From Kordiimonadaceae bacterium (GTDB lineage: Bacteria > Pseudomonadota > Alphaproteobacteria > Sphingomonadales > Kordiimonadaceae): a DNA stretch of 64,000 nt. A program made the translations under genes and the position numbers. Below, piece after piece: positions 10,301 to 24,867 of the stretch (position 1 is the stretch's first letter; the number at the start of each line of letters is the position of its first letter). The DNA is taken from the NCBI GenBank assembly GCA_017640725.1, contig JAEPQB010000002.1:248001-312000 (forward strand). The letters run 5' to 3'. The notes below the pieces were generated by a model. The model did not search any database. It had not been told where the DNA came from and worked only from the letters and a program-made list of their open reading frames with translations.

Positions 10301-10670
10301 GCTGATCGACCAGGACGCTGGCTCGGGCGGTGACTTCCTGCCCTACAGCTTCAAGCGCATGGGCATTGGCAAACTGATCGGCAAGCGCACCTGGGGCGGC
10401 CTTATTGGCATTTCTGCGAACCCGCGCCTGATTGATGGCGGCTTCCTGACTGTGCCCTTCTTCCGCTTCTACACGCCCGAGGGTGAGTGGCGCGTGGAGA
10501 ACGAAGGTGTTGCACCTGATATCGACGTAACGCTGGACCCGACACAAGTGAACGCGGGCGTTGATGTTCAGCTGAACCGCGCGATCCAAGAAGTGCTAAG
10601 TGAGCTTGAGACGTATGAGCCGATCAAGCGCCACACCCCGCCTGCCCTGCCGACAGAGCTTGGCGGCTAA
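7386..10670 (+). CDS. Exported tricorn-like protease (S41 family)
   Basis: 1094 residues. A signal peptide ends near ALAGAANA. Two beta-propeller domains follow (repeats such as FSPDGETIAFSATYDGNTDV and LSPDGNWLAY), then a Lys/Glu-rich linker, a helical C1 domain (REEWAQIFDEAWRLEHQYFY), a PDZ domain (about residues 805-860) and the S41 core. GSGGDFLPYSFK carries the probable nucleophile Ser, and the His sits in LEVGHNRAGGGD. Tricorn trims peptides to small fragments; with a signal peptide this one would act in the periplasm. The real start is the ATG at 7386, 4 bases after GGGAGG. A TTG at 7374 overlaps that ribosome site and is rejected. Confidence 0.93.
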   Translation: MTRKLLSLALSAGLSTIALAGAANAETRLVKQADVSENHIAFVYGGDIWVADRDGANPRQLTTRQAPEMMPHFSPDGETIAFSATYDGNTDVYTIPVSGGAPTRLTWHPGADVVSGWTPDGDNILFMSRREMTSGRSAQAWHVSASGGFPTKIMDAVVMDGRWDSDGEKLAYQPYNTAHRGASGWRNHRGGSTPPIWVLDPASGDWEEVPHENGSDTNPIWVGDDVYFLSDRSGMKNLWKYDSGDKSVEMVTNQETWDINWARAHGNDILFTTTAGDMVMFDTRRGRTRAVDVTLNPDSPEARPHWKNAMPNMTFAGLSPTGKRAVVTARGDVYTVPLDDGSTRNLTRSAGAKESTALWSPKGGEIAYLSDATRKNRVVITDQSGAELRSFDLGDDDYQLVTWSADGGKIIIGDNHLAVWSMDTATGALTKIYTDNRRSGVNVSLSPDGNWLAYTKARANYFNDVFLYSFADGSHTQLTDGMSHAASPAFSPDGKHLFFAASTNAGPTAVGLDMSTQERPIRFGLYAAVLAADGKSPLLPKAGDEAVKSDEEPAKKENGNGEKSDKKSEKKDEKATKVDLDGLTDRIVALPVAERSYRSLQVAHDGGLFFLEFPQPGGTIEPNGRNGGNVAKLMRFDFKAKKASKAMDRVTGYSLSADGKMVIVATPERALMTAKAAKDIKAKKLNTSDVKAFINPREEWAQIFDEAWRLEHQYFYAANMHGLDWDGVYEKYRPLVDHVATRADLNRLIVDMISELEVGHNRAGGGDLYRDAPVATGMLGADLRIVDGKYQVARIYDGENWNPFVKAPLAAPGIGVTEGDFIHAVNGAPVDGASNIFAHFANTVGKQVTLTVSTDGTETREVVVEPIGNERQLRHWAWVEGNRKAVEAATDGRVGYVYLPNTAGGGFTYFNRMFFAQSDKKAMIIDERQNGGGQAANYITDVLSRQYLSSWLDRDGLTFETPGGAVFGPKVMLIDQDAGSGGDFLPYSFKRMGIGKLIGKRTWGGLIGISANPRLIDGGFLTVPFFRFYTPEGEWRVENEGVAPDIDVTLDPTQVNAGVDVQLNRAIQEVLSELETYEPIKRHTPPALPTELGG

Positions 10671-10696
10671 CGGCCCGCGCACAACCAGAAACACAG

Positions 10697-10723
10697 AAAG
10701 CCCCGGTTCGTCGGGGCTTTTTC
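10697..10723. terminator. Intrinsic terminator between convergent genes
   Basis: AAAGCCCCG (10697-10705) pairs with CGGGGCTTT (10712-10720), followed by T residues on the plus side and A residues on the other. It serves both the tricorn protease and, from the other side, the end of the peptide operon. Confidence 0.85.
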
Positions 10724-10751
10724 TATGCGCCTGTCGATTGATCGAAGCCTA

Positions 10752-11330
10752 TCAAATTGTGTAATCAAATGTCTTGATGGTTTCTGCGTCGATTTCCGCC
10801 ACCATATCAAGCTCGCGCTGCGACGCGTAATAGTCGCGGAACTGCCCGTGGGAGGTGCTGTTCTTATGAATGGGGTCAAAGGTCAGGTCAAATCGCTCAC
10901 AAATTGCCCGCCAGTTTTCCTCGAACTTTTCAAACCGATAAACCTGCGAGACACTATCGGTCCAAACAGTTTGCGGCACACCAAACCAAGCCGATTTTGC
11001 TCGGTTTTGTGTATTTATCGTCAACCACTCATTGAACTCATACTGCCGCGCCAGTTGGTGCGACACGTTAAAGCCCTGAAACAATCCATAGTCCAGCGTT
11101 TGATGGTAATGATACAGCGACACCATGCGTTCCCAAGGGTTGCGCACAAAAGCGAAACTGTAATAGCGTCCCCACTCTTCCTGAAAAATACGGTTACGCG
11201 CGTCGGTTGCGGTCATATGGATAAATTTGGGGTTTGGGTCTTCCACAAATCCCAGCATTTCGATGGCGGAACGCCCTGCCGTTTTCGGATTGTGAAAGAA
11301 AATCATTTTTTTCTGCTGACTTACATACAT
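10752..11330 (-). CDS. PAPS-dependent sulfotransferase (Sulfotransfer_2-like)
   Basis: 192 residues. FFHNPKTAGRSAIEML is the 5'-phosphosulfate-binding loop at residues 11-26, and FAFVRNPWERMVSLYHY is the 3'-phosphate-binding motif. The fold transfers sulfate from PAPS to a hydroxyl group, usually on a sugar, tyrosine or small molecule. At under 200 residues it is short but has both cofactor motifs. It starts 5 bases after the Fic stop codon and is the last gene before the terminator, so it appears to be part of the peptide operon. Sulfating a hydroxylated or Tyr/Ser/Thr residue of the exported peptides is a hypothesis from position only. Confidence 0.85.
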   Translation of the reverse strand: MYVSQQKKMIFFHNPKTAGRSAIEMLGFVEDPNPKFIHMTATDARNRIFQEEWGRYYSFAFVRNPWERMVSLYHYHQTLDYGLFQGFNVSHQLARQYEFNEWLTINTQNRAKSAWFGVPQTVWTDSVSQVYRFEKFEENWRAICERFDLTFDPIHKNSTSHGQFRDYYASQRELDMVAEIDAETIKTFDYTI

Positions 11331-11335
11331 AGAAA

Positions 11336-12235
11336 CTACTCAACTAAACCCCGGACGGTTGACCCGGCGTAGCGGGCTCCGCAGGGGTCATTCTTAAAAT
11401 GGAAATGGACATCACCGCTGACAGGCAAGCCACTGGAAGCCTCAGCGACACCAAGCGCCGTATCCAGCATCTCTATCATCAGGGCCACATAATCTGCCCA
11501 CGCCGCCTCCCGCTCCAAAGACAACCGTCTTTCTGCCTCCGTGATGAGAGGCAACCAAACCCGCTTCACCACCGCCAGCGGCAGGTAAACGAAGGAGCAT
11601 TCTGCAGTGCGGGCCAAATCCGCCATCAACAGCGCCCTGGCCGTTCGACCATTGCCATCACTGAACGGATGTAGCGCGACAAAATTAAAGTACCGCACCA
11701 GGCAGGCCTCCAACGTGTCGCTGGCTTGCCTTGGTATGAGTTGCCAGTATTCGTCGATGAGTGAATCTGGATCTTCAGAATTTGGAAATACTGAATAGAG
11801 GCCGTCCAGATCCTGGTCGGTCTTTAATTTGTTTGTCCGGTAACGAAAGGGTGCACCATAAAGGCAGGAGCCTAGCTGCCGAACAGTTTCTTTATCGGGC
11901 TGGTCGACTACCATATCTTCCCAGAATTCGTGCACAATCGGTTCTGCTGACGGTCGCACATAGAGCGGCTTTGGTGAGCTATGGAGCATAGAAGCAGACG
12001 GAAACCCGTTGGGGGTGACAAACACCAGCTTGCCAGCTTCAACCATGCCAGCCAGATAGATATCATTGCCAAAACAACGATACTCTTGACCCCTGAGATA
12101 CTGGGCGAAATTTGCGATGCGCTCCAGAACTCTGCTGCCGGGCCGATTTATCCCCTTAATTTTTGGCGGCAGCGTCAATATTGGCCTTACATCAACCTGG
12201 TTTGCTTGTTCCCAATCAGGAGGGTGATGTGTCAT
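11336..12235 (-). CDS. Fic-domain protein (probable nucleotidyltransferase)
   Basis: 299 residues. The complete Fic motif HPFSDGNGRTAR lies at residues 189-200, with the catalytic His, the phosphate-binding GNGR and the second Arg all present. A Fic_N-like region precedes it (residues 20-140), and no obvious [S/T]xxxE[G/N] inhibitory helix was identified. Fic enzymes transfer AMP or related nucleotide parts to hydroxyl side chains. The gene sits 106 bases after precursor A and 5 bases before the sulfotransferase, on one strand, so it could modify the peptides, the enzymes or a target. It could also be an independent regulator carried in the operon. Confidence 0.9.
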   Translation of the reverse strand: MTHHPPDWEQANQVDVRPILTLPPKIKGINRPGSRVLERIANFAQYLRGQEYRCFGNDIYLAGMVEAGKLVFVTPNGFPSASMLHSSPKPLYVRPSAEPIVHEFWEDMVVDQPDKETVRQLGSCLYGAPFRYRTNKLKTDQDLDGLYSVFPNSEDPDSLIDEYWQLIPRQASDTLEACLVRYFNFVALHPFSDGNGRTARALLMADLARTAECSFVYLPLAVVKRVWLPLITEAERRLSLEREAAWADYVALMIEMLDTALGVAEASSGLPVSGDVHFHFKNDPCGARYAGSTVRGLVE

Positions 12236-12311
12236 GAAAAACCCACTTGTTGAATAGCCTGAATCACCTCTATTGAACTCAGGTCCAATTGGCCAGACGA
12301 ATATTTGGAGG

Positions 12312-12343
12312 GGGTGACTTCAACAAAGCCACCCAATTTTTTT
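12312..12343. terminator. Stem-loop after precursor A with a plus-strand T-run
   Basis: GGGTGAC (12312-12318) pairs with GCCACCC (12328-12334, one wobble) and on the plus strand is followed by AATTTTTTT, which overlaps the precursor A stop codon. In the minus-strand RNA it is a stem just after the precursor with no T-run, so it may stabilise the mRNA end rather than stop transcription. As a plus-strand terminator it has no gene to serve. Confidence 0.4.
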
Positions 12344-12599
12344 ATTGATCATGAGCACCGGTGTTTGAGCCACCGCCGCCGCCGAAGCGAGTTGACGCCC
12401 AAGGACCAGCATTGATCGAACCATATGGATTTCGAGTTGGCCGCGGCGCGGTAACTACGATTTCCTGCATAATTTCCGAATGGTGGAAATCAATGATGAT
12501 TGGTATTCTGGGTGGCTGACCACCGGAAACCAAATTCTGTTCGCTTTCCGACAGCTCATCAATCTCATCTGAGAGTTTATTGTACAGGTCTTTCAACAT
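12342..12599 (-). CDS. Double-glycine precursor peptide A with TonB-box-like core
   Basis: 85 residues. A 27-residue leader starts MLKDLYNKL and ends LSESEQNLVSGG, matching the double-glycine consensus (L at -12, S at -11, E at -8, V at -4, GG). Cleavage would free a 58-residue core beginning QPPRIPIIIDF. The core contains EIMQEIVVTAPRP, close to the TonB box of outer-membrane receptors, and ends GGGGGSNTGAHDQ. The start at 12599 follows AAAGGAAAAGTT; an in-frame ATG at about 12668 lacks a ribosome site. Cutting and export by the C39 exporter in the same operon is likely. No known peptide family is recognised. Confidence 0.8.
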   Translation of the reverse strand: MLKDLYNKLSDEIDELSESEQNLVSGGQPPRIPIIIDFHHSEIMQEIVVTAPRPTRNPYGSINAGPWASTRFGGGGGSNTGAHDQ

Positions 12600-12767
12600 A
12601 ACTTTTCCTTTCTTGGGTTTGTTAATGTTGTCCGGAGCCGCTGAGCCTGCATCGCTCTTTGGCTCCATCTTTTTTGCCCATACAAACCATCTGCATGGGC
12701 CTTCATGCCGTGCCCCTTTCTGAAACGGGATAGACATTGAAGCTCTCTAAATTCTTACCGTATCTGG
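12570..12767 (-). repeat. Duplicated segment, copy A (precursor leader plus relic of exporter 3' end)
   Basis: Matches 14446-14643 without gaps at a constant offset of 1876 bases. It covers the precursor's first codons, its ribosome site, the upstream spacer and, before that, codons reading KNLESFNVYPVSERGTA-stop. This is a copy of the exporter's C-terminus (KNLESFNVRPVTERVTA-stop) with no gene body attached. Confidence 0.9.
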
Positions 12768-12774
12768 TGTAACA

Positions 12775-14280
12775 TTAAGCAGTCTGTCGCTCCTGTTCCT
12801 GGGAGCGATCGGGGCTCATATTCACTTTCCCGCGAACGACATTGTTGGCTGAGGGAACGTGTTCGGTTTTTGCCAAATTGATGAGCCCGAGCATCATGAG
12901 TGTTTTGACAAATGTATCCCCGGTAGTCTCGCCGTGCGACTGCCTAATAGACAAACTGGATAGAGCTTCACCGGCCTGCAGCCGCTTCAGCAGTTTTGCC
13001 TCAGTGTCGCTTATTTGCGTCGAATGTTCGGCGCTCCACAGGTGCCACTTCTTTTCTTCCTCCTGAAACAGTCGCATCGTCGCGTTGGCAACCAAACTGA
13101 CTGAATAGTCGATGCCTGACAATTCAGGGTTGACCTGCTTTTTCAAGGCTGAAGATACCATTCCGCCGCACACTGTCCCACGACCAGAAACAATTGAGTC
13201 AAACATCTGGCGCTCGACAATGGCTGGGTCTAGCGCCCCAATTCGCGATGCAAGTTCAGCAATTACGTTTGGCGTTTCGTGCGCCCTCATTTCTGAAAGT
13301 GGTTGCGGACCTGCGCGACGCCTAAAATCTACGTCGTCGTCATTCAAAATTGAAAGTGCTGCCTCAAAATAGTCCATCCAAGTCGAAGTATGCAGCGCGA
13401 ATGTGACATGACAGGAAAAATCGCTTTCGCAACGGGCGTCATGCATGGCGCCTCGAGGAATGTACAATAAATCACCTTCACTCATGGTAAACTCGGACTT
13501 TTCTGTTCCTATTGGCTTATGCTTTTCCGGGATAAACTCGTTCCTAAAATTGGGTAGCTCAATGCTGTCTTCATATTGGGGATAGAACGACCAGGACTTG
13601 GTGCCAATACACTGCAGCACTAAAACATCATGTAAATCAAAATGGGGTTTAAATGCCTTGTTATCGGGCGGTGTCACATAAACGTTTGCGCTGGATCGAC
13701 ATCCAAAAACGGTTTCCAGTGCCGCACACATCTGTCGAATGACTGGATCATAAGTTTCTATTGCATCAAGCCGTATACTGGTCCCACTCACCATTTGTTT
13801 GCGAAGTCCTATGCAGTCTAATATGCCAGCTTTAGTTCTTGCTGCATGTCGGGGCCCAACGGTACCATTGACCACAGCACCAACCTGTTGGCCAACCAAT
13901 GATTGGGCGGCCAGCATTTGATCCAGTTTTTCAAGCGTTAACAGCTGTTGGAGTGGAGCTTGGCAAACTGCCTGCTCGATTTTACGGAATTCTGTTTGAA
14001 ACGAAGATTCGAAAAAATCTTGGGGCAGCAAGGAACGCACATAGTCAGCCGAAAACTGTTCTCTAATATTGCAATCGCCATCAATTTGTTTTTGCATGCC
14101 TGTTTCTCCGTCTCGTAGCAAAAATTGGGCTGCATAAGCTCCGGCACATCGTCCGGAGTTGAGGTTGCGCAATGATTCATTTGCCCATGTTTTGGAATCT
14201 TGAATGGAGCGACGGAAAAACATGAACAACTCACTCAGATTTCCGCCGCCCATTGGTGGAGGGGATCCGTTGCAGATCAC
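12775..14280 (-). CDS. JmjC/cupin-type 2-oxoglutarate Fe(II) oxygenase in peptide operon
   Basis: 501 residues. KPHFDLHDVLVLQ gives the HxD iron pair at His213 and Asp215, GTKSWSFYP follows as in YcfD/ROXA enzymes, and GDLLYIPRGAMHDA supplies the distal His280. Residues 300-500 include a probable winged-helix/dimerisation region, as in ribosomal oxygenases. Known relatives hydroxylate side chains of ribosomal proteins. Lying between two precursor genes, this one more probably hydroxylates a peptide residue. The start is uncertain: GTG 14280 abuts its GGAGG, and ATGs at 14253 and 14223 are alternatives. It begins about 15 bases after precursor B. Confidence 0.85.
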   Translation of the reverse strand: MICNGSPPPMGGGNLSELFMFFRRSIQDSKTWANESLRNLNSGRCAGAYAAQFLLRDGETGMQKQIDGDCNIREQFSADYVRSLLPQDFFESSFQTEFRKIEQAVCQAPLQQLLTLEKLDQMLAAQSLVGQQVGAVVNGTVGPRHAARTKAGILDCIGLRKQMVSGTSIRLDAIETYDPVIRQMCAALETVFGCRSSANVYVTPPDNKAFKPHFDLHDVLVLQCIGTKSWSFYPQYEDSIELPNFRNEFIPEKHKPIGTEKSEFTMSEGDLLYIPRGAMHDARCESDFSCHVTFALHTSTWMDYFEAALSILNDDDVDFRRRAGPQPLSEMRAHETPNVIAELASRIGALDPAIVERQMFDSIVSGRGTVCGGMVSSALKKQVNPELSGIDYSVSLVANATMRLFQEEEKKWHLWSAEHSTQISDTEAKLLKRLQAGEALSSLSIRQSHGETTGDTFVKTLMMLGLINLAKTEHVPSANNVVRGKVNMSPDRSQEQERQTA

Positions 14281-14295
14281 CCTCCAGTAGTTTGG

Positions 14296-14475
14296 CTAGT
14301 CATGAGCCCCAGTGTTGCTTCCACTACCGCCACCGGGCAGGCCATCACCTGAGCTACATGGGCCAGAACAAGGTGGTGGAGGGTTGTTGTTGTTGCCACC
14401 ATAGACTTGGCTCAGTTCTTTTTCGTCCAGGCTGTGCACTTCATCTGCGAGTGTGTTATACAGATCTTTCAACAT
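14296..14475 (-). CDS. Double-glycine precursor peptide B
   Basis: 59 residues. The leader starts MLKDLYNTLADE and ends LDEKELSQVYGG, a full double-glycine consensus including L at -7. The 32-residue core begins NNNNPPPPCSGPCSSGDG, with two cysteines four apart that could form a disulfide or be modified, and ends GGGSGSNTGAHD. It shares leader start, upstream DNA and C-terminal block with precursor A, but the middle of the core is unrelated. It lies 103 bases after the exporter and about 15 before the oxygenase. Confidence 0.8.
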   Translation of the reverse strand: MLKDLYNTLADEVHSLDEKELSQVYGGNNNNPPPPCSGPCSSGDGLPGGGSGSNTGAHD

Positions 14476-14643
14476 AACTTTTCCTTTCTTGGGTTTGTTA
14501 TTGTTGTCCGGAGCCGTTGAGCCTGCATCGCTCTTCGGCTCCATCTTTTTTGCCCATACAAACCATCTGTATGGGCCTTCATGCCGTCACCCTTTCTGTA
14601 ACGGGGCGGACATTGAAGCTCTCTAAATTCTTGTCGTCTTTGG
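14446..14643 (-). repeat. Duplicated segment, copy B (source copy, overlaps exporter 3' end)
   Basis: The counterpart of 12570-12767. Here the upstream part is the functional end of the exporter gene, so this is the original arrangement and copy A is the derived one. Confidence 0.9.
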
Positions 14644-16771
14644 TGGCCTGCCAAAGCGATTGTCCATCGACTTCCTGCAGGTGACCATTTTGCATCTCAA
14701 AAATGCGGTCTGCGGAACGGATCGTTTCCGGGCGGTGCGCCACGATAATACGCGTCATTCCAAGTTCAGCGATGGATTGATTAACGCACCGCTCGGTGTT
14801 CACGTCCAGATGGGCGGTGCCTTCATCCATAAACAAAATGGTTGGTTGCCGGTACAAAGCACGAGCCAGCACAATGCGCTGTTTCTGGCCACCGGAAAAC
14901 GCCGCGCCCATATCTCCCACCAGGCTTTCAAACCTCATGGGCATCGCCATAATTTCATCGTAAATCTGTGCAGTTTTTGCTGCCTCAACGACGCGCTGCA
15001 TATCAATTTCAGGATCAAAAAATGCAATGTTCTCGGCGATGGAGCCCGCGAACAAATCGTCCTCCTGCATCACCACGCCAACCTGCTTGCGGTAGCGACG
15101 CAGCCCGTATTCCGACAGGGAAACCCCGTCTATCAACAACTGGCCATCGTCGGGTTGCAGAAGACCGGCCATAATTTTGAGCAATGTTGTTTTGCCACAA
15201 CCACTTGGCCCGATAAGTGCGATACTCTCACCCACCCCGACATCCAGGTCCGCACCGGACAAAACGTAGGGTGTGTTATGTGAATACCGATACCGAATTT
15301 CGCGAAGAGTTATGTGCCCTTGCAGTGAAGGCCCATCGCAAACAGCAGGCAGATCATCACCCAGGTTTTCCTGATCTGCATGGGCGATATCCGCAATCCG
15401 CTCCAGGTGAAGATTGAGCATTCTGAATTCAATAAACTTCTCAACAAGTGCCGCTGCTTTGTCAGTGAAGTTGCGTTTGTAGGCCATAAAGGCGAACAGC
15501 ATGCCGACAGAAAAGTCACCGGCCATTACCATTGTTGCCGCGACATAAATGATGATTACCAGTTCAGTACCGAACATGCCTGTTTGGGCACTTTTGAACC
15601 AGATGTTTAGCTTTGCCACCCGCGCGTTCGCGTTAATCACACTCGCATAATTATTTTGCCAAAGGCTGGACCTGAGGCTTTCGCCGCCATGCAGTTTTAC
15701 GCCAACAATTCCGCGAATTGTCTCCATAAAATTACTCTGTTCTTTGGCCTGACTGACAATGGCATCTTCTTGAGCGGCGCGCAGGGAGCGATAAAAAGAC
15801 AGGCGCAGCACAAGATAAACAAACCAAATTCCCAGGGCGATGGCTGCCAGCAGAGGATTATAGAGAAACATCATCATCAATGTGGTGATAGCCATCACCC
15901 CATCAATAATGCTGGCCACCAGGCCTTCCGTAAGCATTTGCTTGATTGGCTCCATCGAGCCAAAACGGGAGGTGATGTCGCCGATATGCCTTTTTTCGAA
16001 GAATTCTGCAGGCAAATGAATAAGGTGTCGGAACAGGTTGCCCACCATTTGGAATGACAGCATGCTACCAAAATATAGCAACACATATCCGCGCAAAGTT
16101 TCGACAAATACACCAATGAGTTTCACAGCTGCAAAACCCAACGCCAGCACCAAGAGAAGATCAGCATCAAATGTGGTCAGGACGTCATCGATCACAACCT
16201 GCATGTAAAACGGGCCCACCAGCACCATCAATTGCAACAATACTGACAGAATGATGGCCTGCTGAAGCGACCGCCGGAAACCTACAATATTGCTCCAGAG
16301 GTCTGAAAGTTTGAGGCGAACCCGTTCTTTTCCTTTTTCAAAGTCATCCGTCGGTGTGCATTCGAGGGCAATGCCAGTGAAATGCTGGGAAAACTCTTCT
16401 TTGGTGTAATTGCACTCACCCCGAGCCGGATCATGAACCGTGATTTTGTTGCCTTTCACTGATTTCAAAACAACAAAATGGTTCATGTCCCAATGCAAAA
16501 TGGCAGGGACCTTCAAGCTGCTGATTTTGTCTAGCGGTACCTTAACTGGCCGGGAGGCAAACCGCATGTTGTTGGCAACGTCAATCACATGGCGAAGCGT
16601 CATGCCCTGAAGGCCCGTGGCATATTTGCGGCGCAAACTACTGAGGTCGGTATCATAACCATGGTAGCCCGCAATCATGGCAAGCGACGCTAAGCCGCAT
16701 TCTGCCGCTTCATTCTGCCGTACAATTGGAAGCGTTTTGCGATTGCTGAAATTGAGCGCATCCAGGTTCAT
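14579..16771 (-). CDS. Peptidase-containing ABC exporter (C39 + ABC, PCAT/ColV type)
   Basis: 730 residues. The N-terminal C39 peptidase has QNEAAECGLASLAM (Cys25), WDMNHFVVL (His98) and VHDPARG (Asp114), so the catalytic triad is intact. The membrane domain spans about residues 160-430. The ATPase has Walker A GPSGCGKTT (521-529), signature FSGGQKQRIVLARAL and Walker B TILFMDEGTAHLD. It cuts double-glycine leaders and exports the cores. The ATG at 16771 overlaps the HlyD stop codon (ATGA) after GGAGG; the frame runs further upstream to 16810 but that start is less likely. Confidence 0.95.
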   Translation of the reverse strand: MNLDALNFSNRKTLPIVRQNEAAECGLASLAMIAGYHGYDTDLSSLRRKYATGLQGMTLRHVIDVANNMRFASRPVKVPLDKISSLKVPAILHWDMNHFVVLKSVKGNKITVHDPARGECNYTKEEFSQHFTGIALECTPTDDFEKGKERVRLKLSDLWSNIVGFRRSLQQAIILSVLLQLMVLVGPFYMQVVIDDVLTTFDADLLLVLALGFAAVKLIGVFVETLRGYVLLYFGSMLSFQMVGNLFRHLIHLPAEFFEKRHIGDITSRFGSMEPIKQMLTEGLVASIIDGVMAITTLMMMFLYNPLLAAIALGIWFVYLVLRLSFYRSLRAAQEDAIVSQAKEQSNFMETIRGIVGVKLHGGESLRSSLWQNNYASVINANARVAKLNIWFKSAQTGMFGTELVIIIYVAATMVMAGDFSVGMLFAFMAYKRNFTDKAAALVEKFIEFRMLNLHLERIADIAHADQENLGDDLPAVCDGPSLQGHITLREIRYRYSHNTPYVLSGADLDVGVGESIALIGPSGCGKTTLLKIMAGLLQPDDGQLLIDGVSLSEYGLRRYRKQVGVVMQEDDLFAGSIAENIAFFDPEIDMQRVVEAAKTAQIYDEIMAMPMRFESLVGDMGAAFSGGQKQRIVLARALYRQPTILFMDEGTAHLDVNTERCVNQSIAELGMTRIIVAHRPETIRSADRIFEMQNGHLQEVDGQSLWQATKDDKNLESFNVRPVTERVTA

Positions 16772-18006
16772 CCTCGACCCTCCAATGCCCTTAATGGTCC
16801 TAGCAACCAACTGAGCATACTGCGTTTTTCCAGGATGATGTTTGCCTGCAACGTCATGCCGCTTTGCAACGAAATCTGCTTCTCGTTCGCCAATACTTGC
16901 TGTGCATTCAGACTAGCGGTGACACGATAAACTGGTTCTTGAATTTCAAACGGTGCTTGTGTTTCGCTCGGTGTGAGGATCGTTTCGGTTACTCGCACAA
17001 TCGTCGCGTCATAGGTTCCAAATCGCTGATAGGGAAAAGCATCGTACATCAGCCTGACTTCTTGCCCCGCTTCAATAAACCCAACCGCTCTACTGGGCAC
17101 AAAAAGCTCCGCTTCGAGCGCGCTCCCGTCTGGAATGATGGTGAGAAAATATTGGCCGGCTTGCACTGTCCGCCCAGCAACCCCTCCGCTAACAGCCATA
17201 ATCCGTCCGCTTGTTGGCGCCGCAATACTGTAGGCCTGCAAGCCCCGTTGTTCGACGATACGAGCATCGAGCTCTGTTAACTGTGATTGCAGCCGGGCAA
17301 GTCGTTGATCGGTATCAGCGGGCAATTGGGTTAGGCGGATTTCCAGTTGCTCCAGCCGGGCTTCAGTTTCCACGAGCTGTTGCTTTACAAGTTGTTCCTG
17401 TGCTTGCTGCCCCAGCCAGGCCTGCTTGCGGCGTTCAGACTCGATTTTGCTGATAAATCCTTTTTTGAGAAGATCCTGAACATCTTCATACGACGCCTGT
17501 GCAGAAAACGTGATCTGGCTTTGGAGATCAATCTGTCGGTTGAGGGATTTGACCTGCAATTCCAATTCGACTTTTTCGGCAGCAAGTTTAGCTTTTTCTG
17601 CTTCTAGTTGATTTTTTTCCAGTGTGACCTGACTGCCAACAATTGCCTTTTGCCGCGCCAGGATATCAAGGTTCTGTTCCGCTACGGAATGTCCCTCAGA
17701 AGTAGTATTTGCGACTTCAATTCTCGCGAGAATCTGGCCTTGCTCAACCGTATCCCCTTCTTGAACATATACAGTTCCAATGGTTCCAAATTGACCAGCC
17801 TGAATCCGGATCAAACCCTGTGAAGGCACAAGGTAGCCGACCACACGTTCGCTGCGGGCATAAGAGCCTGAAACAAGCACAATTGTCGACAAAATGACAA
17901 TGGAAACAATGATATAGGTGATAACAGAAAAAGCCACAGGCTGCGTTACAAACACATCACCGTGCAATTTGCGCTTTTGCGCTTCTATCGCTTCAACTCG
18001 AAACAA
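16768..18006 (-). CDS. HlyD-family membrane fusion protein
   Basis: 412 residues. One membrane helix lies at about residues 27-50 (FSVITYIIVSIVILSTIVLV), then a lipoyl-like half (GTIGTVYVQEGDTVEQGQIL), a long coiled coil at about residues 125-245 rich in Gln/Glu/Leu, and the second lipoyl half (SGRIMAVSGGVAGRTVQAGQ). It links the exporter to an outer-membrane channel, which is not in this operon. It is first in the peptide operon and overlaps the exporter gene by 4 bases. Confidence 0.93.
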   Translation of the reverse strand: MFRVEAIEAQKRKLHGDVFVTQPVAFSVITYIIVSIVILSTIVLVSGSYARSERVVGYLVPSQGLIRIQAGQFGTIGTVYVQEGDTVEQGQILARIEVANTTSEGHSVAEQNLDILARQKAIVGSQVTLEKNQLEAEKAKLAAEKVELELQVKSLNRQIDLQSQITFSAQASYEDVQDLLKKGFISKIESERRKQAWLGQQAQEQLVKQQLVETEARLEQLEIRLTQLPADTDQRLARLQSQLTELDARIVEQRGLQAYSIAAPTSGRIMAVSGGVAGRTVQAGQYFLTIIPDGSALEAELFVPSRAVGFIEAGQEVRLMYDAFPYQRFGTYDATIVRVTETILTPSETQAPFEIQEPVYRVTASLNAQQVLANEKQISLQSGMTLQANIILEKRSMLSWLLGPLRALEGRG

Positions 18007-18289
18007 ATTCGACCCCGTGCAGAATTGTTACCCGTCATCCTAGAGTTAAAGACGCGTGCAAACGCAAGTAGAATTTTTGAATCTTAATGAAATTTATGGC
18101 TGTATTTTGGTAACGCTTTGATTCGCCTGAAATTTCATGAATGTCACAAAATTGCCTAAATGTGTAAACTTGACAACTTTGGTCAACTTTTGGCCACACT
18201 TCAGCGAATCAATTGCTGGCCAGACACCTCAAATGAGTGCTTGAGAGAGCGTGGTGTCTGACGCCGCCGCGCCGACACCAAAAGATAAT
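18007..18289. promoter_or_regulatory. Upstream region of the peptide operon
   Basis: There is no gene here. A dyad TTGAC-N7-GTCAA lies at 18170-18186, with a -35-like TTGACC on the minus strand. A second inverted repeat, CAGACACC (18221-18228) against GGTGTCTG (18253-18260), encloses a nested CTCAA/TTGAG pair. Either could be an operator; no -10 box is convincing. Confidence 0.35.
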
Positions 18290-18315
18290 AAGCCCCGGTC
18301 CGCCGGGGCTTTTTT
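18290..18315. terminator. Terminator at the end of azoR
   Basis: AAGCCCCGG (18290-18298) pairs with CCGGGGCTT (18303-18311) around TCCG, with a T-run on the plus side that overlaps the azoR stop codon. It insulates azoR from the peptide operon. Confidence 0.75.
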
Positions 18316-18955
18316 ATGTGTTTTTTGCAATAGCCGCACCGAGGTTTTGCGCGGCAGCAAAGGCGGCTGTTTTCGACTGTGCATAGCGCACGTCGCCAAA
18401 CTCTTGATACTCAACACCAATGTGATGGAAGTCCTGCACACCCAAATAGCGGGATACGTAGCGCAAGTGTGGCACCAGATTATCACCGCCTTCGTTTATG
18501 CCACCGGCTTCAAAACCAAATTCACCCCAACTGGTTAAGGCCACCACCCGTTTTCCGGACAGTGTTGGCTCTATCGGTCTGTCGCCCCGGGACAGGTCAA
18601 AAGTGAATGTTTCATTGACCCGCACAACCTGATCAATCCAGGCTTTCAGGCTTGCTGGCATGCCATAATTGTACATGGGCGTGGACAGCAGAATGACATC
18701 TGCACGGCGCACCTCGCCAATCAACTGATCAGATTGCCGGAGCAGCTCTTTTTGCGCCTGTGTTCTTTGCTTGCTAAAGGCGGCAGCGATCCAGTCCTGA
18801 GACACAAAACCTGGTGGGTTTTGGCCCACATCCCGCTTGATAACTTCAACGTCTCGCTGGTTAAATTTGATGGCTTCAATAACGCTATCAGCCAATTGCC
18901 GTGATACCGACGCCTCCACCCTCGCACTGGCGTCCACTCTTAATATTTTCAGCAT
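18314..18955 (-). CDS. azoR: FMN-dependent NADH-azoreductase
   Basis: 213 residues of flavodoxin-like fold. LKILRVDASAR with SVSRQLADSV is the phosphate-binding N-terminal loop, and STPMYNYGMPASLKAWIDQV is the family's flavin-binding signature. It reduces quinones and azo compounds with NADH in the cytoplasm. I start at the ATG at 18955, 8 bases after GAGG; an ATG at 18961 is too close to that site. It is divergent from a LysR gene that probably controls it. Confidence 0.9.
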   Translation of the reverse strand: MLKILRVDASARVEASVSRQLADSVIEAIKFNQRDVEVIKRDVGQNPPGFVSQDWIAAAFSKQRTQAQKELLRQSDQLIGEVRRADVILLSTPMYNYGMPASLKAWIDQVVRVNETFTFDLSRGDRPIEPTLSGKRVVALTSWGEFGFEAGGINEGGDNLVPHLRYVSRYLGVQDFHHIGVEYQEFGDVRYAQSKTAAFAAAQNLGAAIAKNT

Positions 18956-19091
18956 CTTCATACCCTCGCATAATATGGTTTTCTCAAAGTGCATTCATTT
19001 AGATTCACCATTAAACCTATTCAATTACCTGGTTTTCACAACGCAGTTATGGTTAACTATAATTAAATTATATTCACTTATAGGCACGCCC

Positions 19092-19991
19092 ATGACTGTT
19101 CGAATGCCCTCCCCTGCTGCGCTGCGCACCTTTGATGCGGCCGCCCGGTTTGAGAGCTTTAAGCAAGCCGCACAAAGCCTTGGCGTGACACCTGCTTCCG
19201 TTTCCCATCAGATTAAAATTCTGGAGCAGCAGTTGGGGTTTGCGCTTTTTATTCGGTCTGTCAGGGAGGTGCGCTTAACCGCGGCTGGCGAACGCCTTGC
19301 CCAAGCAACAAATGTTGCGTTTGCCTCCATTGAGGCTGCGCTTGAGGACATTGGCGCGACCGAAAATACGCTCACACTCTCCACAACACCGGCCTTTGCC
19401 GCCCTGGTGCTGATGCCGCACATTCGCACTTTTGAGGAAGCGAACCCGCACATGCGCATCCAGTTGGATACGAGCACAGAGCTCGTGGACTTGAACCGTG
19501 ACAGAAGAATTGATGTCGCTATCCGTTATGGCACCAAGCCGGAGCATGATGAGCGGCTCAGCGCAACAGAACTAGCCCGCGAAACCTACGGGGTTTACTG
19601 TGCGCCCCAAATCGCAGAGCAAGTCCATAAAACCTCTGGCCTACCCTTCATCGAAACGGATTGGCGCAGCCCCACATTGCCGACCATAAGCGTGCAGAGC
19701 TGGCTTGAAAAAGCGACTATTGCAATTGACGGTGCAGCGGCGCGCAAAATCTTAAAATACGACCAGGAGCATTATACTGTTCAGGCCGGAATGGCCGGCC
19801 AAGGCCTGATTTTCGTGAGCGACCTGTTGGTTCGCCAGCACCTGAAGGCAGGCTGGCTGGTGCCTTTCCAGCCGGATGTGCGTGTCGACGGTTTGTCATA
19901 TTACATGGTGACGACGGCCTATGGTGCAGAGACCCTGAAGGTCAGAAAATTCAAGTCCTGGCTTCGCCAACTGCTGGCGGCGACCGAATAA
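19092..19991 (+). CDS. LysR-family transcriptional regulator
   Basis: 299 residues. The winged helix-turn-helix is at residues 8-65 (SPAALRTFDAAARFESFKQA, ASVSHQIKILEQQLG), followed by a LysR substrate-binding domain with the GcvA-like TPAFAALVLMPHIRTFEEAN. It is divergent from azoR, with the start ATG at 19092 only 136 bases from the azoR start, so it likely regulates azoR and itself. Upstream frame extension into azoR is rejected. Confidence 0.88.
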   Translation: MTVRMPSPAALRTFDAAARFESFKQAAQSLGVTPASVSHQIKILEQQLGFALFIRSVREVRLTAAGERLAQATNVAFASIEAALEDIGATENTLTLSTTPAFAALVLMPHIRTFEEANPHMRIQLDTSTELVDLNRDRRIDVAIRYGTKPEHDERLSATELARETYGVYCAPQIAEQVHKTSGLPFIETDWRSPTLPTISVQSWLEKATIAIDGAAARKILKYDQEHYTVQAGMAGQGLIFVSDLLVRQHLKAGWLVPFQPDVRVDGLSYYMVTTAYGAETLKVRKFKSWLRQLLAATE

Positions 19992-20224
19992 CTGTCGCAC
20001 GACCATCACGATTACCGTGCAGACCGACCAAATTGTCTTCTGATCAGAAGCAGTTGCACCAGTTTTCAGTCACGCGCCACCCCTTTCCATTCCCTATGGT
20101 TATCAGTAAGCAAAACACTGGTTATCTTATTGAAATATATATGCTTTTTATTTGTCTTTTGACGCTTTGAGTACCATGTTGGCGACGTATCTGTTTGCAA
20201 TCACACCCCATGAAAGGACCTAAA

Positions 20225-20584
20225 ATGGAACAACAAAACCTTAAAACCTTGAACACCCTTCTGGACATGCTCGCCAAAGGGCAGTTCCTTGAAGGCATGG
20301 AGCTCTATTTCGCCGACGACGTGGTCATCCAGGAAGTGGGCCAGACGCCAAAACGCGGCAAAGCCGTTTGCATTGAAGCCGAAGAAGAGCTTCTAAAAGG
20401 TGTCGCCGAATTTATCCAATACACCGCCCTTTCAGTGGGTGCGGGCGGCGAGCAGACTTTTTACGAAGCGGTAATGGAGTTCAAAACCACGGCTGGCGAG
20501 CATGTGGTGCAGCGCCAGGCTGTTGTCACAACCTGGAAAGATGGCAAAATTACCGACGAAAAATACTATCATGCTAATGTGTGA
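20225..20584 (+). CDS. SnoaL-like/NTF2-fold protein
   Basis: 119 residues. A small alpha/beta cone fold is suggested by the N-terminal helix (LNTLLDMLAKGQFLEGMELY), FADDVVIQEVG, and C-terminal strands ending VTTWKDGKITDEKYYHANV. These resemble the SnoaL-like superfamily, whose members range from isomerases to proteins without known activity. The ATG at 20225 follows AAAGGACCTA. No substrate can be given. The next gene, a TDT channel, begins 52 bases on. Confidence 0.7.
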   Translation: MEQQNLKTLNTLLDMLAKGQFLEGMELYFADDVVIQEVGQTPKRGKAVCIEAEEELLKGVAEFIQYTALSVGAGGEQTFYEAVMEFKTTAGEHVVQRQAVVTTWKDGKITDEKYYHANV

Positions 20585-20636
20585 CGACAACCGAGCGGGC
20601 TAACCCCCAGCGCGCACAATTCAGAAGGACCCGGTC

Positions 20637-21662
20637 ATGGCATTTTCGGCACGCGGTGCAGCAAGCCTTTTGTCCAGAATACCCACGGCGCTGTTTCCCA
20701 TTTCATTGGGCCTTGCCGGATTTGGCGCGGCCCTGTCGAAAGCCAGCGCTGTCATGGGCAGCACGACGGGAGTCACGGTCGGGCATGGCTTCCTGTTGGC
20801 GGCATTGTCTGTGCTTTCGGTGGTTGTTCTTCTGTATTGTGTGAAGCTGGTGCGCGCACCCGGCGACATACTGGCGGACCTGAAAACCGCCACGCATGCC
20901 AACTTGCTGGCGCCGGGTTTTATGGCAGCGATGGTAATAGGTGGATCATTCGCGACCATGCACCCGGCGGCGCCCATCTTGTGGCTGGTTGCCACCGTTG
21001 GGCACACGCTTTTGCTTGTCGGGTTTGTGGCACGATGGCTCACGCAGCATTATTCCACTGACGACCTGAACCCCACCTGGTTTTTACCCGCTGCCGGCAT
21101 CATGACATCGGCGATGGTCTGGCCTGGCTCGGACATGGTGGGGGTTCCAACCGCCCTGCCCATGTTTACATTGGCAACCGGGGCATTGGTGTGGTTGATG
21201 CTGCTGCCGCTGGTGTTCCGCAAACTTGTGTTCGAAGCACCGGTGCCCGCAGACCTGCGGCCAACATTATTTATCACTGCCGCGCCGTTTGGCCTGTTTG
21301 CAGGCGCTGTGCTGACCCTGTTCCCGTCAGCGCCAAATGAGCTCGCAGCCATGTTTTTGTTGGCGGGTTTGTTTATCGTGTTAGTTCTGCTGTTTAAACT
21401 GGGGTTCCTGCTGAAGGCGGGCGTTACGCTGAGTTGGTGGGCGACCACATTCCCAGTGGCAACTCTTGCCACCGGCTTTTTTCGGGTCTCGGAACCTGGC
21501 GAAGCTGTCTATCTGGGCATCGCGATGCTTTTGCTGGCATTGGCCGGCTTGGCAACACTAGTCGCCGTCATCGCCACCCTGCGGTCGGCTTGGCGAACCT
21601 GCGCCAAAACCGCCGGTAAAACCGAAACAGAGATTTTCGCCATGTTTGGAAACCGAAAGTAA
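20637..21662 (+). CDS. TDT/SLAC1-TehA family membrane channel
   Basis: 341 residues with about ten hydrophobic helices. The start (SRIPTALFPISLGLAGFGAA) and the internal FMAAMVIGGSFATMHPAAP pattern match the tellurite-resistance/dicarboxylate (TDT) family, including TehA and plant SLAC1 anion channels. It probably passes small anions across the inner membrane. The start follows GAAGGACCCGGTC. Link to the SnoaL-like gene upstream is by spacing only. Confidence 0.85.
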   Translation: MAFSARGAASLLSRIPTALFPISLGLAGFGAALSKASAVMGSTTGVTVGHGFLLAALSVLSVVVLLYCVKLVRAPGDILADLKTATHANLLAPGFMAAMVIGGSFATMHPAAPILWLVATVGHTLLLVGFVARWLTQHYSTDDLNPTWFLPAAGIMTSAMVWPGSDMVGVPTALPMFTLATGALVWLMLLPLVFRKLVFEAPVPADLRPTLFITAAPFGLFAGAVLTLFPSAPNELAAMFLLAGLFIVLVLLFKLGFLLKAGVTLSWWATTFPVATLATGFFRVSEPGEAVYLGIAMLLLALAGLATLVAVIATLRSAWRTCAKTAGKTETEIFAMFGNRK

Positions 21663-21668
21663 ACCAGT

Positions 21669-22163
21669 CTAGAACGCGCGCCCCAACGCAATACCAAACA
21701 CCAGCGCATCTTCATGCGAAAAGTCATAATGCAGCTGAGGAGACAACGTAAAGCCGCTCTCAAATTCAAACTCATAGAGCATACCCAGCCTCAGCGCAGC
21801 GTGGGAGTTTCCATCAACAAACTCCACGCCCGGCCCAACCTGCGCAATCAAACCATGCCATAAATGCAGATCAGCAACGGTGAGCAAAGTCGTAGAGTTG
21901 ATATCGCCAAAAGCTTGCTCAACAACAAAACCCAGGCCCAGGAATTCACTGACCCGGTATTCATAATCTAGCCCCAGCGTCACTGCCGAATGGTCACCAT
22001 CCACCAGGTCTGTGCCGCCAATCAACAGAGACAAGTGGTGTGGCGCAGAATGATGAATGGCTTGATGTTGATCTTCTGCAAACACCCCCACGCTAAGCAG
22101 AGCGTTCACGGCAAAATTCATAAGCATATATGTGAACTTAACTTGCGACATGATCATGCCCAT
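21669..22163 (-). CDS. Putative outer-membrane beta-barrel protein
   Basis: 164 residues, not assigned to a named family. A signal peptide probably ends at VGVFA. After it, alternating strands (LGLDYEYRVSEFLGLGFVVE, AALRLGMLYEFEFESGF, LSPQLHYDF) end in FGIALGRAF, with a terminal Phe as in outer-membrane barrels. The His-rich DQHQAIHHSAPHH right after the signal peptide could bind metal. The ATG at 22163 follows AAAAGGTCA. It ends a few bases from the convergent TDT gene. Confidence 0.65.
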   Translation of the reverse strand: MGMIMSQVKFTYMLMNFAVNALLSVGVFAEDQHQAIHHSAPHHLSLLIGGTDLVDGDHSAVTLGLDYEYRVSEFLGLGFVVEQAFGDINSTTLLTVADLHLWHGLIAQVGPGVEFVDGNSHAALRLGMLYEFEFESGFTLSPQLHYDFSHEDALVFGIALGRAF

Positions 22164-22236
22164 TGTGATTGACCTTTTGTGGTTAGTTGTTCCGCGTCAA
22201 ACAGAGTGCGCCCGCACTGCCAAAACAGGATGCCCA

Positions 22237-22268
22237 GTGCCGTGAGCGAAGACTGTGAAACACGGCAC
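22237..22268 (-). terminator. Hairpin downstream of the isochorismatase-fold gene
   Basis: GTGCCGTG (22237-22244) and CACGGCAC (22261-22268) form an 8-bp perfect stem 11 bases after the stop codon. There is no clear T-run, so it may be a weak or Rho-assisted end. Confidence 0.35.
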
Positions 22269-22279
22269 CGGGGCGCAGC

Positions 22280-23062
22280 CTAAAAGGCTGCTTTTATTTC
22301 AGAAACAATGGTTTCTGTCGTATCGATACGGCTGGCAATGAAGCGGAAGTTTGTAAGGGCCGCAGCATAGCCGTCATAATGTTCGGTGATGGCGGCCGCC
22401 GTGGCATCGGTTACGATCATCACTTCAAAGCCCTGCTCCACCAATTCACGCAAATGGCTTTCTGTGCACAAGTTGGCCGACATGCCGGCAAGAACGACTT
22501 TCGAGATGCCATTTTTCCTGAGCTGCAAAACAAGATCGTTGGTATCCGGACCATAGATTTTGTGCGGGCTGGTCACGACCGTATGATCATTATTGATATA
22601 GGGCTTGTACCGCTCCAGCCAATCGGCGCCTGAGCCATCAAAACCCTCGAGGTCAAGTGGTCCTGCACGGTCAAACATATGAATGCTGTGCATCAATACC
22701 TCGAGTGCCCCTTCAAACTTCCAATTGTGGTCATAGGGAAAGTAATAGTGGGGCGACACAAAAATGGGCATGCCACTGTCGTGTGCCGCTTTGAACAAGT
22801 GCTCCAGGTTCCTGACCGTATTGTTGGCTGTTACACTTTTGCCGACAACACCCCAAGTGACACCTTCCGGTGACAAAAAGTCGACTTGCGGGTCAGTCAC
22901 CACAAAAGCTGTGTCCCCTTTAGTGATGGTGAAGCCAGGATTTGGCAGCCCGTCATTAACTGGTGCTCTGTCAGCTGCTGCTACGACGGTTTCCTGAGCA
23001 ACTACAAGCCCCCCCTGCAACGCCAGGTACGCTGTTACTATGAATAGACTAATAGACTTCAT
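22280..23062 (-). CDS. Exported cysteine hydrolase (isochorismatase fold)
   Basis: 260 residues. The isochorismatase-like triad is visible: Asp in FVVTDPQVDFLS, Lys in TSPHKIYGPDTND and Cys in AGMSANLCTESHLREL. Relatives hydrolyse amides or isochorismate. Unusually it starts with a signal peptide (MKSISLFIVTAYLALQG ending near VVAQ), so it should act in the periplasm. The ATG at 23062 follows GAGGGAATTC. It is divergent from an AraC regulator that probably controls it. The substrate is unknown. Confidence 0.85.
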   Translation of the reverse strand: MKSISLFIVTAYLALQGGLVVAQETVVAAADRAPVNDGLPNPGFTITKGDTAFVVTDPQVDFLSPEGVTWGVVGKSVTANNTVRNLEHLFKAAHDSGMPIFVSPHYYFPYDHNWKFEGALEVLMHSIHMFDRAGPLDLEGFDGSGADWLERYKPYINNDHTVVTSPHKIYGPDTNDLVLQLRKNGISKVVLAGMSANLCTESHLRELVEQGFEVMIVTDATAAAITEHYDGYAAALTNFRFIASRIDTTETIVSEIKAAF

Positions 23063-23245
23063 TTGAATTCCCTCTCGAACCAAACACAGGCACCAATTGC
23101 CTGCGACATGGGCATAGCAAAGGTGACGTGCTCATTCGTCTCGAACCCGTGCCCAAATCGCTTTTTCGTTTAAGATTCATGTCTTTGGAGGTAACTTTTC
23201 CAAACATCGACGCAGATGGGGTCAACGCTGAGAGGGGGAGAAGGC

Positions 23246-24130
23246 GTGGTCGCTGACTTAGAAATCAATATTGAATCTTTGGTGCTTTGCGTATTGAGGG
23301 GCGATGCCAAACTGGATTTGCCGGTCAGGTCTGCGGCGTCGTTTCATTACATTTTGAGCGGCAAGGGCCAAATCGAATTTTCAGACAGAAAAGCGATCGA
23401 CATTGATGAAGGGTCGATCGTATTTGTGCCAGCCAATTGGAAACACAGATACCGTAGCTTTGAAGGTGGAGCGCCTCTACCGCCCATTGCCGAGACACTG
23501 GGTGCAAACATGAAAAAGATATCCGTGCCCGGGGCTGGAAAGGGCGGCATCGTAGGCTTGTGTGGCACTATGAACGTGCACGTTCGCGGCGCGCGCGCAC
23601 TGTTTGATTTATTGATCTCGCCCATTGCCGTTGACGCGAATGTTTCGCGTTATTGCCGCAAATTGATGGACATGGTGTTCGCTGAAGCAAACCGGGGCGA
23701 AAAAGCAAGTTTCGCGATTGTGAATGCCTTGATCCGGGCGTGCCTGATTTCCATCACGGAGCACTCAAGGGAAACTGGGGACAATAAAATGGGTTGGCTG
23801 TCGGCGGCCAACGAGCCCAAACTTTGGCCGGCACTGGAAAAAATTATGGCAAACCCGTCTGACAAGTTCACTGTCTCCGGTTTGGCCGACCTGTCCGGAA
23901 TGAGCCGCGCCCGATTTGCCAAGTTGTTTAGGGAAACGTACGGCCGTGGACCGATGGAATTTCTCAATCAGCTACGCATGCAGCAAGCGGCGCACTTGTT
24001 GTCTGCAACGCACGGCCCAATCAAAAAAATTGCTTCTAAAGTGGGGTTTGGTTCGCGGTCCGCATTCACGAGAAATTTCAAGAACTTCTCTGGATTGTCC
24101 CCGACAGATTACCGCACCGAACATCAGTGA
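23246..24130 (+). CDS. AraC-family transcriptional regulator
   Basis: 294 residues. The N-terminal cupin sensor domain (FHYILSGKGQIEF, IDEGSIVFVPANWKH) is followed by a helix-turn-helix pair (FTVSGLADLSGMSRARFAKL, GFGSRSAFTRNFKNFSGLSP). I prefer the GTG at 23246, which follows AGGGGGAGAAGGC; an ATG at 23216 in the same frame has no ribosome site. It is divergent from the exported hydrolase. Confidence 0.88.
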   Translation: MVADLEINIESLVLCVLRGDAKLDLPVRSAASFHYILSGKGQIEFSDRKAIDIDEGSIVFVPANWKHRYRSFEGGAPLPPIAETLGANMKKISVPGAGKGGIVGLCGTMNVHVRGARALFDLLISPIAVDANVSRYCRKLMDMVFAEANRGEKASFAIVNALIRACLISITEHSRETGDNKMGWLSAANEPKLWPALEKIMANPSDKFTVSGLADLSGMSRARFAKLFRETYGRGPMEFLNQLRMQQAAHLLSATHGPIKKIASKVGFGSRSAFTRNFKNFSGLSPTDYRTEHQ

Positions 24131-24164
24131 CAGCAGGCTGCACGCCGTAAACATGGTATTTCGG

Positions 24165-24728
24165 TTAACCCAGAGCCGAGAGCGCCGCGTCGCGGGCGCG
24201 GGTCAGCTGTGTGATCTCTAACCCGCAGCGCGCCATGGTGCGCATGCCAGCGTAAACCGACAGCAAATGCTCGGCCGACCCTGCACGGTCCGGCACATCG
24301 GTTTCCTCAAGCGCTGACAGTAAGGCATCTCGCATCGCATTCATGGCATCGCGCACCATCGCGCCGGTGTTTTCGTCATCAGCCGCCATATCAATGGCTG
24401 CGTTACACAGAAAACAGCCGCGCCGGTCACCACGCACGTCGGCTGCATCCACAACAAGGTTCAGATAGGCCTCAATCGCCTTCGCGCCAGAGTGAGATGT
24501 GTCCTCAAGCACATCAACCGCGCCCTGCACTTCTTCATCGATATAAAGCGAAAGCGCCATGCGATAGAGCGCGTGCTTGTCGCCAAACGCAGCATAGAGG
24601 CTGCCGCGCCCCAAGCCGGTAGCATTGCTGAGGTCAGCGTAAGACGTGCCTTCAAATCCCTGTTTCCAAAACAGGTCACGCACCGTTGCCAATGCTTTTT
24701 TGTCATCAAACTCGCGTAATCGCGCCAC
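24165..24728 (-). CDS. TetR-family repressor next to a DM13 gene
   Basis: 187 residues. The DNA-binding domain reads TSYADLSNATGLGRGSLYAA followed by FGDKHALYRMAL, and a C-terminal domain of the TetR_C type has CFLCNAAIDMA. A GTG at 24728 after GAGGGGG fits the family N-terminus (VARLREFDDKKAL); the frame is open to 24818 but that extra part is not typical. It is divergent from the DM13 gene, with a dyad between them. Confidence 0.85.
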   Translation of the reverse strand: MARLREFDDKKALATVRDLFWKQGFEGTSYADLSNATGLGRGSLYAAFGDKHALYRMALSLYIDEEVQGAVDVLEDTSHSGAKAIEAYLNLVVDAADVRGDRRGCFLCNAAIDMAADDENTGAMVRDAMNAMRDALLSALEETDVPDRAGSAEHLLSVYAGMRTMARCGLEITQLTRARDAALSALG

Positions 24729-24764
24729 AAAAGCCCCCTCACGATCATGTGATGAGATTGATTC

Positions 24765-24780: not shown

Positions 24781-24867
24781 CAATAACCATCTGGTCGATT
24801 GTTGAACGATCGATCCATAATATAGGGCCGGTCAGACTATGAGGCAACTTTTTACAGGGAACCCGAT

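Follow-up and report, generated by a model that had tools for sequence, protein, structure and literature searches.

A putative microcin-like operon in a Kordiimonadaceae bacterium combines two double-glycine precursors and a C39 exporter with JmjC, Fic and sulfotransferase genes

Introduction

Microcin V (MccV), a class II microcin, is made with a double-glycine leader and relies on a C39-type exporter and a HlyD protein. The same parts are found in a group of seven minus-strand genes that runs from position 18006 to position 10752 of the DNA analysed here, a 64,000-nucleotide stretch of a marine Kordiimonadaceae bacterium (assembly GCA_017640725.1, contig JAEPQB010000002.1, positions 248,001 to 312,000), referred to below as the window. 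In order, these genes encode HlyD, a C39/ABC exporter, a small precursor (preA), a JmjC_2 oxygenase, a second precursor (preB), a Fic protein and a sulfotransferase. To our knowledge, class II microcins are usually regarded as free of modifications other than an attached siderophore, and we know of no oxygenase for those of the microcin V type. Unlike microcin V, preB carries a TonB-box sequence.

The mcb locus on plasmid pLQ510 of Moraxella catarrhalis resembles the seven genes in having HlyD, a C39 exporter, a double-glycine peptide and, upstream, a JmjC_2 gene. The mcb bacteriocin of this plasmid is proven and, as far as the accessible text of the report goes, is accompanied by the immunity gene mcbI; the word ‘cupin’ does not occur in the main text of that paper (PMC2761928). 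Unlike the window, the plasmid has no annotated Fic or sulfotransferase gene, and its JmjC protein belongs to another clade, its match to an Acinetobacter JmjC protein stopping at residue 267 of 381. A full-text literature search for JmjC together with bacteriocin or microcin returned no paper with either term in its title or abstract, and the mcb paper was not among the matches.

JmjC proteins that act on precursor peptides have been described for biphenomycin, a ribosomally synthesized and post-translationally modified peptide (RiPP). BipG is a JmjC hydroxylase of ornithine (PMC12707348), and JmjC in a RiPP setting is also described for BpmG/PbsQ (PMC12257519). The available portions of these papers name MNIO, B12-radical SAM and arginase-type enzymes, unlike the present gene set, and make no mention of a C39 exporter. 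A survey of RiPP recognition elements, in the part available, also places bacterial JmjC homologues in RiPP-like contexts (PMC12710340). A sulfotransferase also belongs to the raxX-raxSTAB cluster of Xanthomonas, together with a double-glycine peptide and a type I exporter pair whose ABC component takes off the leader, and tyrosine sulfation of such a peptide is already on record; the cluster, as described in the accessible text, lacks JmjC and Fic genes, and RaxX is sulfated on Tyr41 (PMC6637879), whereas preA has no tyrosine. A first-pass annotation had called the seven genes undescribed-looking. This stands for the full set, which we found nowhere else in the samples searched, but not for its central enzyme type, since JmjC hydroxylases of RiPPs are published.

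Results

The open reading frame (ORF) list and Pfam bear out the first-pass picture of seven genes on one strand that begin with HlyD and have the oxygenase placed between two precursors. The HlyD-type periplasmic adaptor (16768..18006, 412 aa, TTG start as listed; HlyD_3, E = 4.8e-16) overlaps by 4 nt the gene for the exporter (14579..16771, 730 aa), which has a Peptidase_C39 domain (PF03412, E = 1.8e-36) followed by ABC_membrane and ABC_tran. The Fic (E = 3.7e-10) and Sulfotransfer_2 (E = 5.4e-8) calls were likewise confirmed, and their genes are 5 nt apart. The earlier description of overlaps or short gaps fits these two junctions but not the other four: with corrected starts, the gaps upstream of preA, JmjC, preB and Fic are approximately 103, 198, 175 and 106 nt. 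Several gaps are thus 100–200 nt long because the precursors probably start at the sequence MLKDLYN, each behind a duplicated, folded leader. LanM, YcaO, radical SAM and ATP-grasp enzymes, reported absent at first pass, are not listed for any of the seven proteins in Pfam or NCBIfam (for the exporter, among the best 25 of 195 NCBIfam matches).

The C39 triad recognized earlier, Cys25, His98 and Asp114, is present in the exporter; an alignment of seven exporters shows no variation at Cys25 and His98. The protein is 68–69% identical to same-genus exporters, and the closest named relative of its residues 1–470 is found in Kordiimonas laminariae (68%), so that the host is probably a Kordiimonas or a near relative; the adaptor is 57% identical to that of another genome of the genus, G012. 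Assignment to the NHLP/Nif11-type bacteriocin exporters (TIGR03796) was rejected, as the exporter scored 520 bits against a curated cut-off of 853.3. The adaptor gene adjoins the exporter gene, and the operon itself has no TolC gene. Sequence evidence thus gives solid support to the view that the seven genes include an operon for double-glycine peptides exported through a C39 transporter.

Both precursors most likely begin at MLKDLYN. The long precursor ORFs start 5′ of this point, and AAGAAAGGAAAAGTT precedes both ATG 14475 of preA (14296..14475, 59 aa) and ATG 12599 of preB (12342..12599, 85 aa). From these starts, each has a leader of 27 residues with the double-glycine end recognized at first pass, YGG in preA and SGG in preB. 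The mature part of preA comprises 32 residues with two cysteines and no tyrosine, and that of preB comprises 58 residues with a single tyrosine (Tyr32) and the sequence EIVVTA at residues 19–24. preA scores narrowly above the cut-off of TIGR01847, a model of bacteriocin leaders (15.9 against 15.7 bits, E = 0.015); the other NCBIfam precursor matches fall below their cut-offs, including a radical-SAM-target precursor model on preA (19.3 against 25). In Pfam, preA has no match and preB only a sub-threshold match to UvdE, and a search of plasmids with preB gave no match at E = 1.

Apart from one shared stretch at the C-terminus, GSNTGAHD, the mature sequences are different; this tail ends preA and is followed by a final glutamine in preB. 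Five of the eight tail codons differ between the two genes and all five changes are synonymous; in the 27-codon leaders, 17 codons differ, six synonymously and 11 nonsynonymously. The tail therefore appears to be retained for its amino acids. Siderophore (class IIb) microcins have glycosyltransferase- and esterase-type attachment genes and a Ser-rich tail. No such attachment gene was found among the seven proteins in Pfam or NCBIfam, and the tail here is GSNTGAHD.

The 125 nt before each precursor start (14476..14600 for preA, where it overlaps the exporter gene at its 3′ end; 12600..12724 for preB) form a duplicated leader that is 95% identical and folds into two hairpins. Folds of the 127-nt leaders were more stable than all of 200 shuffles in each case (z = −5.88 for preA, 14474–14600; z = −3.43 for preB, 12598–12724). 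We found no further copy in the organism's own genome, only matches of 14–19 nt at E = 0.8 or worse. The whole duplicated block spans 234 nt at 86% identity and takes in the 3′ end of the exporter gene (12769–12565 aligned to 14645–14441). Since a relic of that exporter end remains before preB (12725..12769), the second precursor arose through copying of the exporter–precursor junction. In G012, a 40-residue stretch resembling the exporter's N-terminus (67.5% identical; locus L137, 7203–7322) lies amid double-glycine peptide genes. Like the preB relic, it points to duplications in which parts of the exporter gene were copied.

The gene between the precursors encodes a putative Fe(II)/2-oxoglutarate-type oxygenase of the JmjC_2 family (12775..14097, 440 aa; PF08007, E = 1.3e-23 to 1.7e-23, 83.4 bits against a cut-off of 22). 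We place its start at ATG 14097, which has GGAG upstream and near which homology begins; the additional 61 codons of the longer in-frame ORF, from GTG 14280, are doubtful. The iron ligands of the HxD...H motif, His152, Asp154 and His219, are invariant among 10 aligned proteins. A profile of the aligned proteins matched 39 PDB sequences at E = 0.01, among them MINA, NO66, a putative asparaginyl hydroxylase, a cupin-4 protein, the ribosomal-protein L16 arginine hydroxylase, FIH and JMJD5. The relatives of known structure thus include histidyl, arginyl and asparaginyl hydroxylases.

JmjC genes adjoin HlyD and C39 genes in several other proteobacterial records: pLQ510, pMC23.1 of A. baumannii, Acinetobacter sp. 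FDAARGOS_493, a Neisseria gonorrhoeae record and genome G609. The JmjC search gave the same match figures for a second record of the Neisseria kind. A double-glycine peptide lies upstream in pMC23.1, and no peptide gene is annotated in FDAARGOS_493. The fullest set is that of G609, with JmjC, a small protein that appears by eye to be membrane-bound, a Gly-rich double-glycine peptide, HlyD, C39 and an outer-membrane efflux protein. Three JmjC queries matched 109, 118 and 100 plasmid records, some of which were inspected for their neighbours. JmjC also occurs beside other RiPP-type enzymes (radical SAM; YcaO/TfuA). A JmjC/HlyD/C39 core therefore recurs, as the first-pass annotation had proposed to check, and appears to be rare; the full seven-gene set was absent from the searched samples. 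That annotation had stated beforehand that its proposal would fall if the seven genes never co-occurred elsewhere, and in these samples this is literally the case.

Two other neighbourhood types of JmjC_2-like genes were observed. In 12 of 30 neighbourhoods (L038, L039, L040, L041, L042, L043, L044, L045, L046, L048, L050 and L055; all 12 are among the 20 retrieved with longer flanks, none among the 10 with flanks of ~1.5 kb), Tat-signal peptide genes with Asp-rich repeats such as TDSDTGAYADPxGxGRG lie within ~2 kb of JmjC_2 on the same strand. Three of these peptides were scanned and gave no family model above cut-off; peptides of this type are a candidate JmjC substrate family. On small mobilizable plasmids, JmjC_2-like cupin genes (L062, pEC16II of E. 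coli; L061, pAVAci117 of Acinetobacter) neighbour an ABC transporter gene, or methyltransferase and MFS genes.

The segment that holds the operon appears to be inserted. The operon's left-hand neighbour, a tricorn-like protease gene by eye, has counterparts in two genomes of the genus, G005 (88% identical) and G018 (81%). There, ~115 bp after it, come homologues of the window genes at 21669–24818, with no match to any intervening window gene. Because the flanking genes adjoin there, the region from ~10.7 to 21.66 kb is best explained as an insertion, a double loss being less likely. Gene order past the protease differs again in G013, G014 and G015, so that the site (10670–21669) is variable in the genus. 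Two copies of a GC-rich terminator stem (10675..10722 and 18267..18314; direct repeat, 75% over 48 nt) enclose just the seven genes. A stem of the same kind lies 3′ of the protease gene in five of five relatives, and such stems also occur elsewhere in these genomes; recombination between stems is therefore possible. The operon has a G+C content of 0.497, compared with 0.57 in the protease gene and 0.528 across the window.

The single terminator assigned earlier to the operon (10697–10720) looks instead like that of the converging gene: its T-run lies on the plus strand, 3′ of that gene, and its tail on the operon strand is poor. Our terminator scan found 13 candidates against 14.5 expected from shuffles and hence no excess, so that the terminator call rests on conservation in relatives. 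The right part of the insertion (18314–21662), likewise absent from the empty site, encodes a flavodoxin-fold reductase (Pfam) and, by eye, LysR, SnoaL-like and TehA-like proteins.

The Fic protein (11336..12235, 299 aa) has an intact HPFx[DE]GNGRxxR motif, HPFSDGNGRTAR, and lacks an [ST]xxxE[GN] motif. The sulfotransferase (10752..11330, 192 aa) has the sequences HNPKTAGRS and RNPWERMVSLY, which we take, by eye, to be its 3′-phosphoadenosine-5′-phosphosulfate (PAPS) motifs; a search of PDB sequences with it found nothing at E = 1. Across 59 genomes of relatives, at the limits used, Fic matched in the own genome only and the sulfotransferase in three, the two besides its own at 31% and 28% identity. 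JmjC matched in 11 including its own (E = 0.001), elsewhere at no more than 32% identity, and we therefore rejected the idea of genus-wide enzymes; a JmjC search of the genome contig collection found no relative. The first-pass annotation had linked Fic and sulfotransferase to the pathway by spacing alone. Because all seven genes lie between the stem copies within the insertion, these two share boundaries with the peptide genes, which is stronger evidence for their membership of the operon unit than spacing. In another genome, G326, a C39 exporter gene overlaps a Fic gene that is followed by a nucleotidyltransferase gene (locus L141, 6936–14997); upstream lie the gene of an S9 peptidase and an incomplete ORF resembling radical SAM by eye.

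Mature preB holds the sequence QEIVVTAPR, in which EIVVTA equals the TonB box of receptors encoded by the same genome. The exact DNA pattern for E-I-V-V-T-[A/G] occurs six times in the 4.04-Mb genome, against none for a reversed control. Four of the six precede the Plug domain of TonB-dependent receptors by ~12–20 residues; the other two are in preB and inside a DUF4139 protein. The latter (L150, 849–2519) has EEIVVTGSR, the TonB box of the receptor type, internally and at a long distance from its N-terminus. Shuffled mature preB contained the exact motif once in 200,000 and a loose form 381 times in 200,000, figures that flatter the motif because EIVVTA was noticed before testing. The idea that such motifs are common in peptides of this kind was rejected: among 130 candidate peptides around 80 related exporters, false ORFs included, DIVVSA was the single loose match and [VI]T[AG]x[RK] did not occur, so that the box is no general feature of these peptides.

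Discussion

We favour, with a probability of roughly 0.6, an accessory microcin-like operon in which one or both precursors are hydroxylated by the JmjC protein, the pathway also includes Fic and the sulfotransferase, and the peptides are cleaved by C39, exported and directed at other bacteria. From the gene set we infer a modification and its site, an order of steps, an antibacterial action and roles for Fic and the sulfotransferase. The two precursors have double-glycine leaders of one kind, 27 residues long, and end in the same tail, but their middles are different. Tailoring by the JmjC oxygenase is likely; it would hydroxylate precursor side chains, most plausibly Asn, His or Asp of the shared tail. 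Fic and the sulfotransferase could contribute further tailoring or self-protection. The C39 domain would cleave after GG, and the ABC exporter, HlyD and a TolC supplied elsewhere would deliver the peptides to the medium, where they may act on other bacteria. The order of hydroxylation, nucleotidyl or sulfate transfer, leader cleavage and export is conjecture.

Several observations weigh against this reading, and some of them suit another one, in which plain class II-type microcins are exported unmodified while JmjC, Fic and sulfotransferase are island passengers with other substrates. No JmjC ORF was found in the 80 nearest exporter loci (genome contigs) or in 60 loci of the class (27-protein profile), scanned for ORFs of at least 60 aa ending inside the locus at E = 1e-4. 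These loci also gave no sulfotransferase match and had Fic only in G326 and L216, although many of them end at contig ends. C39 was found in 88 of the 385 genomes of the class; from the matches listed, the 60 class loci were taken best first, excluding the locus of the window itself, most of the short open frames and a few more. One of the 60, L092, showed no long exporter match. Related exporters therefore normally function without JmjC. Among 80 chosen C39-bearing genomes, 47 have PF08007 matches, yet only the own genome and G609 show one within ~3 kb of C39 among the matches listed (proximity judged by eye; rough chance expectation ~0.2). G012, with orthologous HlyD (57%) and C39 (69%) and four double-glycine peptides, has no PF08007 match. 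In the JmjC tree, four other C39-locus proteins form one clade (100/100), and the window protein stands apart on long branches. It joins L002 (96/90), with a program warning of possible false joining of two long branches; a single origin of JmjC beside C39 was rejected, as the five C39-linked proteins require two changes and none of 200 bootstrap trees shows one. Derivation of the tail from the Asp-rich repeats near JmjC relatives was also rejected, since shuffles score as well (76 of 400 for the 12-residue tail, 153 for eight residues, 337 for preA and 88 for preB). By eye, no immunity gene was recognized among the listed ORFs of at least 40 aa, which were viewed without membrane-segment prediction. 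The passenger explanation also draws on the seemingly unrelated genes in the rest of the insertion (18.3–21.66 kb). It is at odds with a JmjC gene lodged between two precursors, with the recurrence of JmjC beside HlyD/C39 in other proteobacteria and with terminator copies that enclose exactly the seven genes, and we consider it rather unlikely.

Two further alternatives, both improbable in our view, give the last two genes the leading part. A product of the raxX type would be sulfated on preB Tyr32 before export and would carry a signal to host or kin cells instead of acting as a bacteriocin; the shared part list and the unseen immunity gene would suit it. Tyrosine sulfation prefers nearby acidic residues. 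preB Tyr32 lies in RNPYGSI with no acidic residue nearby, preA contains no tyrosine, JmjC and Fic have no counterpart in the rax cluster as described, and the sulfotransferase lacks a PDB match at E = 1. Fic might instead replace an immunity gene, AMPylating the producer's own target or disabling immature peptide in the cytoplasm. Its intact HPFxDGNGRxxR without [ST]xxxE[GN] and the exporter–Fic overlap in G326 agree with self-protection; a leader pattern found no precursor in the G326 locus, however, and L216, the only other scanned locus with a Fic ORF, has it some kilobases downstream of the exporter.

If the favoured reading of an oxygenase-tailored, microcin-like operon is right, the recurrence of JmjC in class II microcin operons, including that of the mcb plasmid reported in 2009, would amount to an overlooked modification, and the JmjC gene would be a marker for finding more such operons. 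Group B colicins carry their own TonB box. More speculatively, and with a low probability in our view, preB would be an oxygenase-tailored microcin that does the same and is pulled by TonB into a related bacterium after binding an outer-membrane receptor, preA and preB forming a modular pair with a shared leader, a shared modified tail and different working middles. MccV uses the TonB-linked receptor Cir and has no predicted TonB box of its own, a point that a 2025 study leaves to future work (PMC12511343). With preB, a small peptide equipped with a box of its own, the alternative to the MccV case could be tested directly, and the box in preB hints at how such a peptide may enter rival cells.

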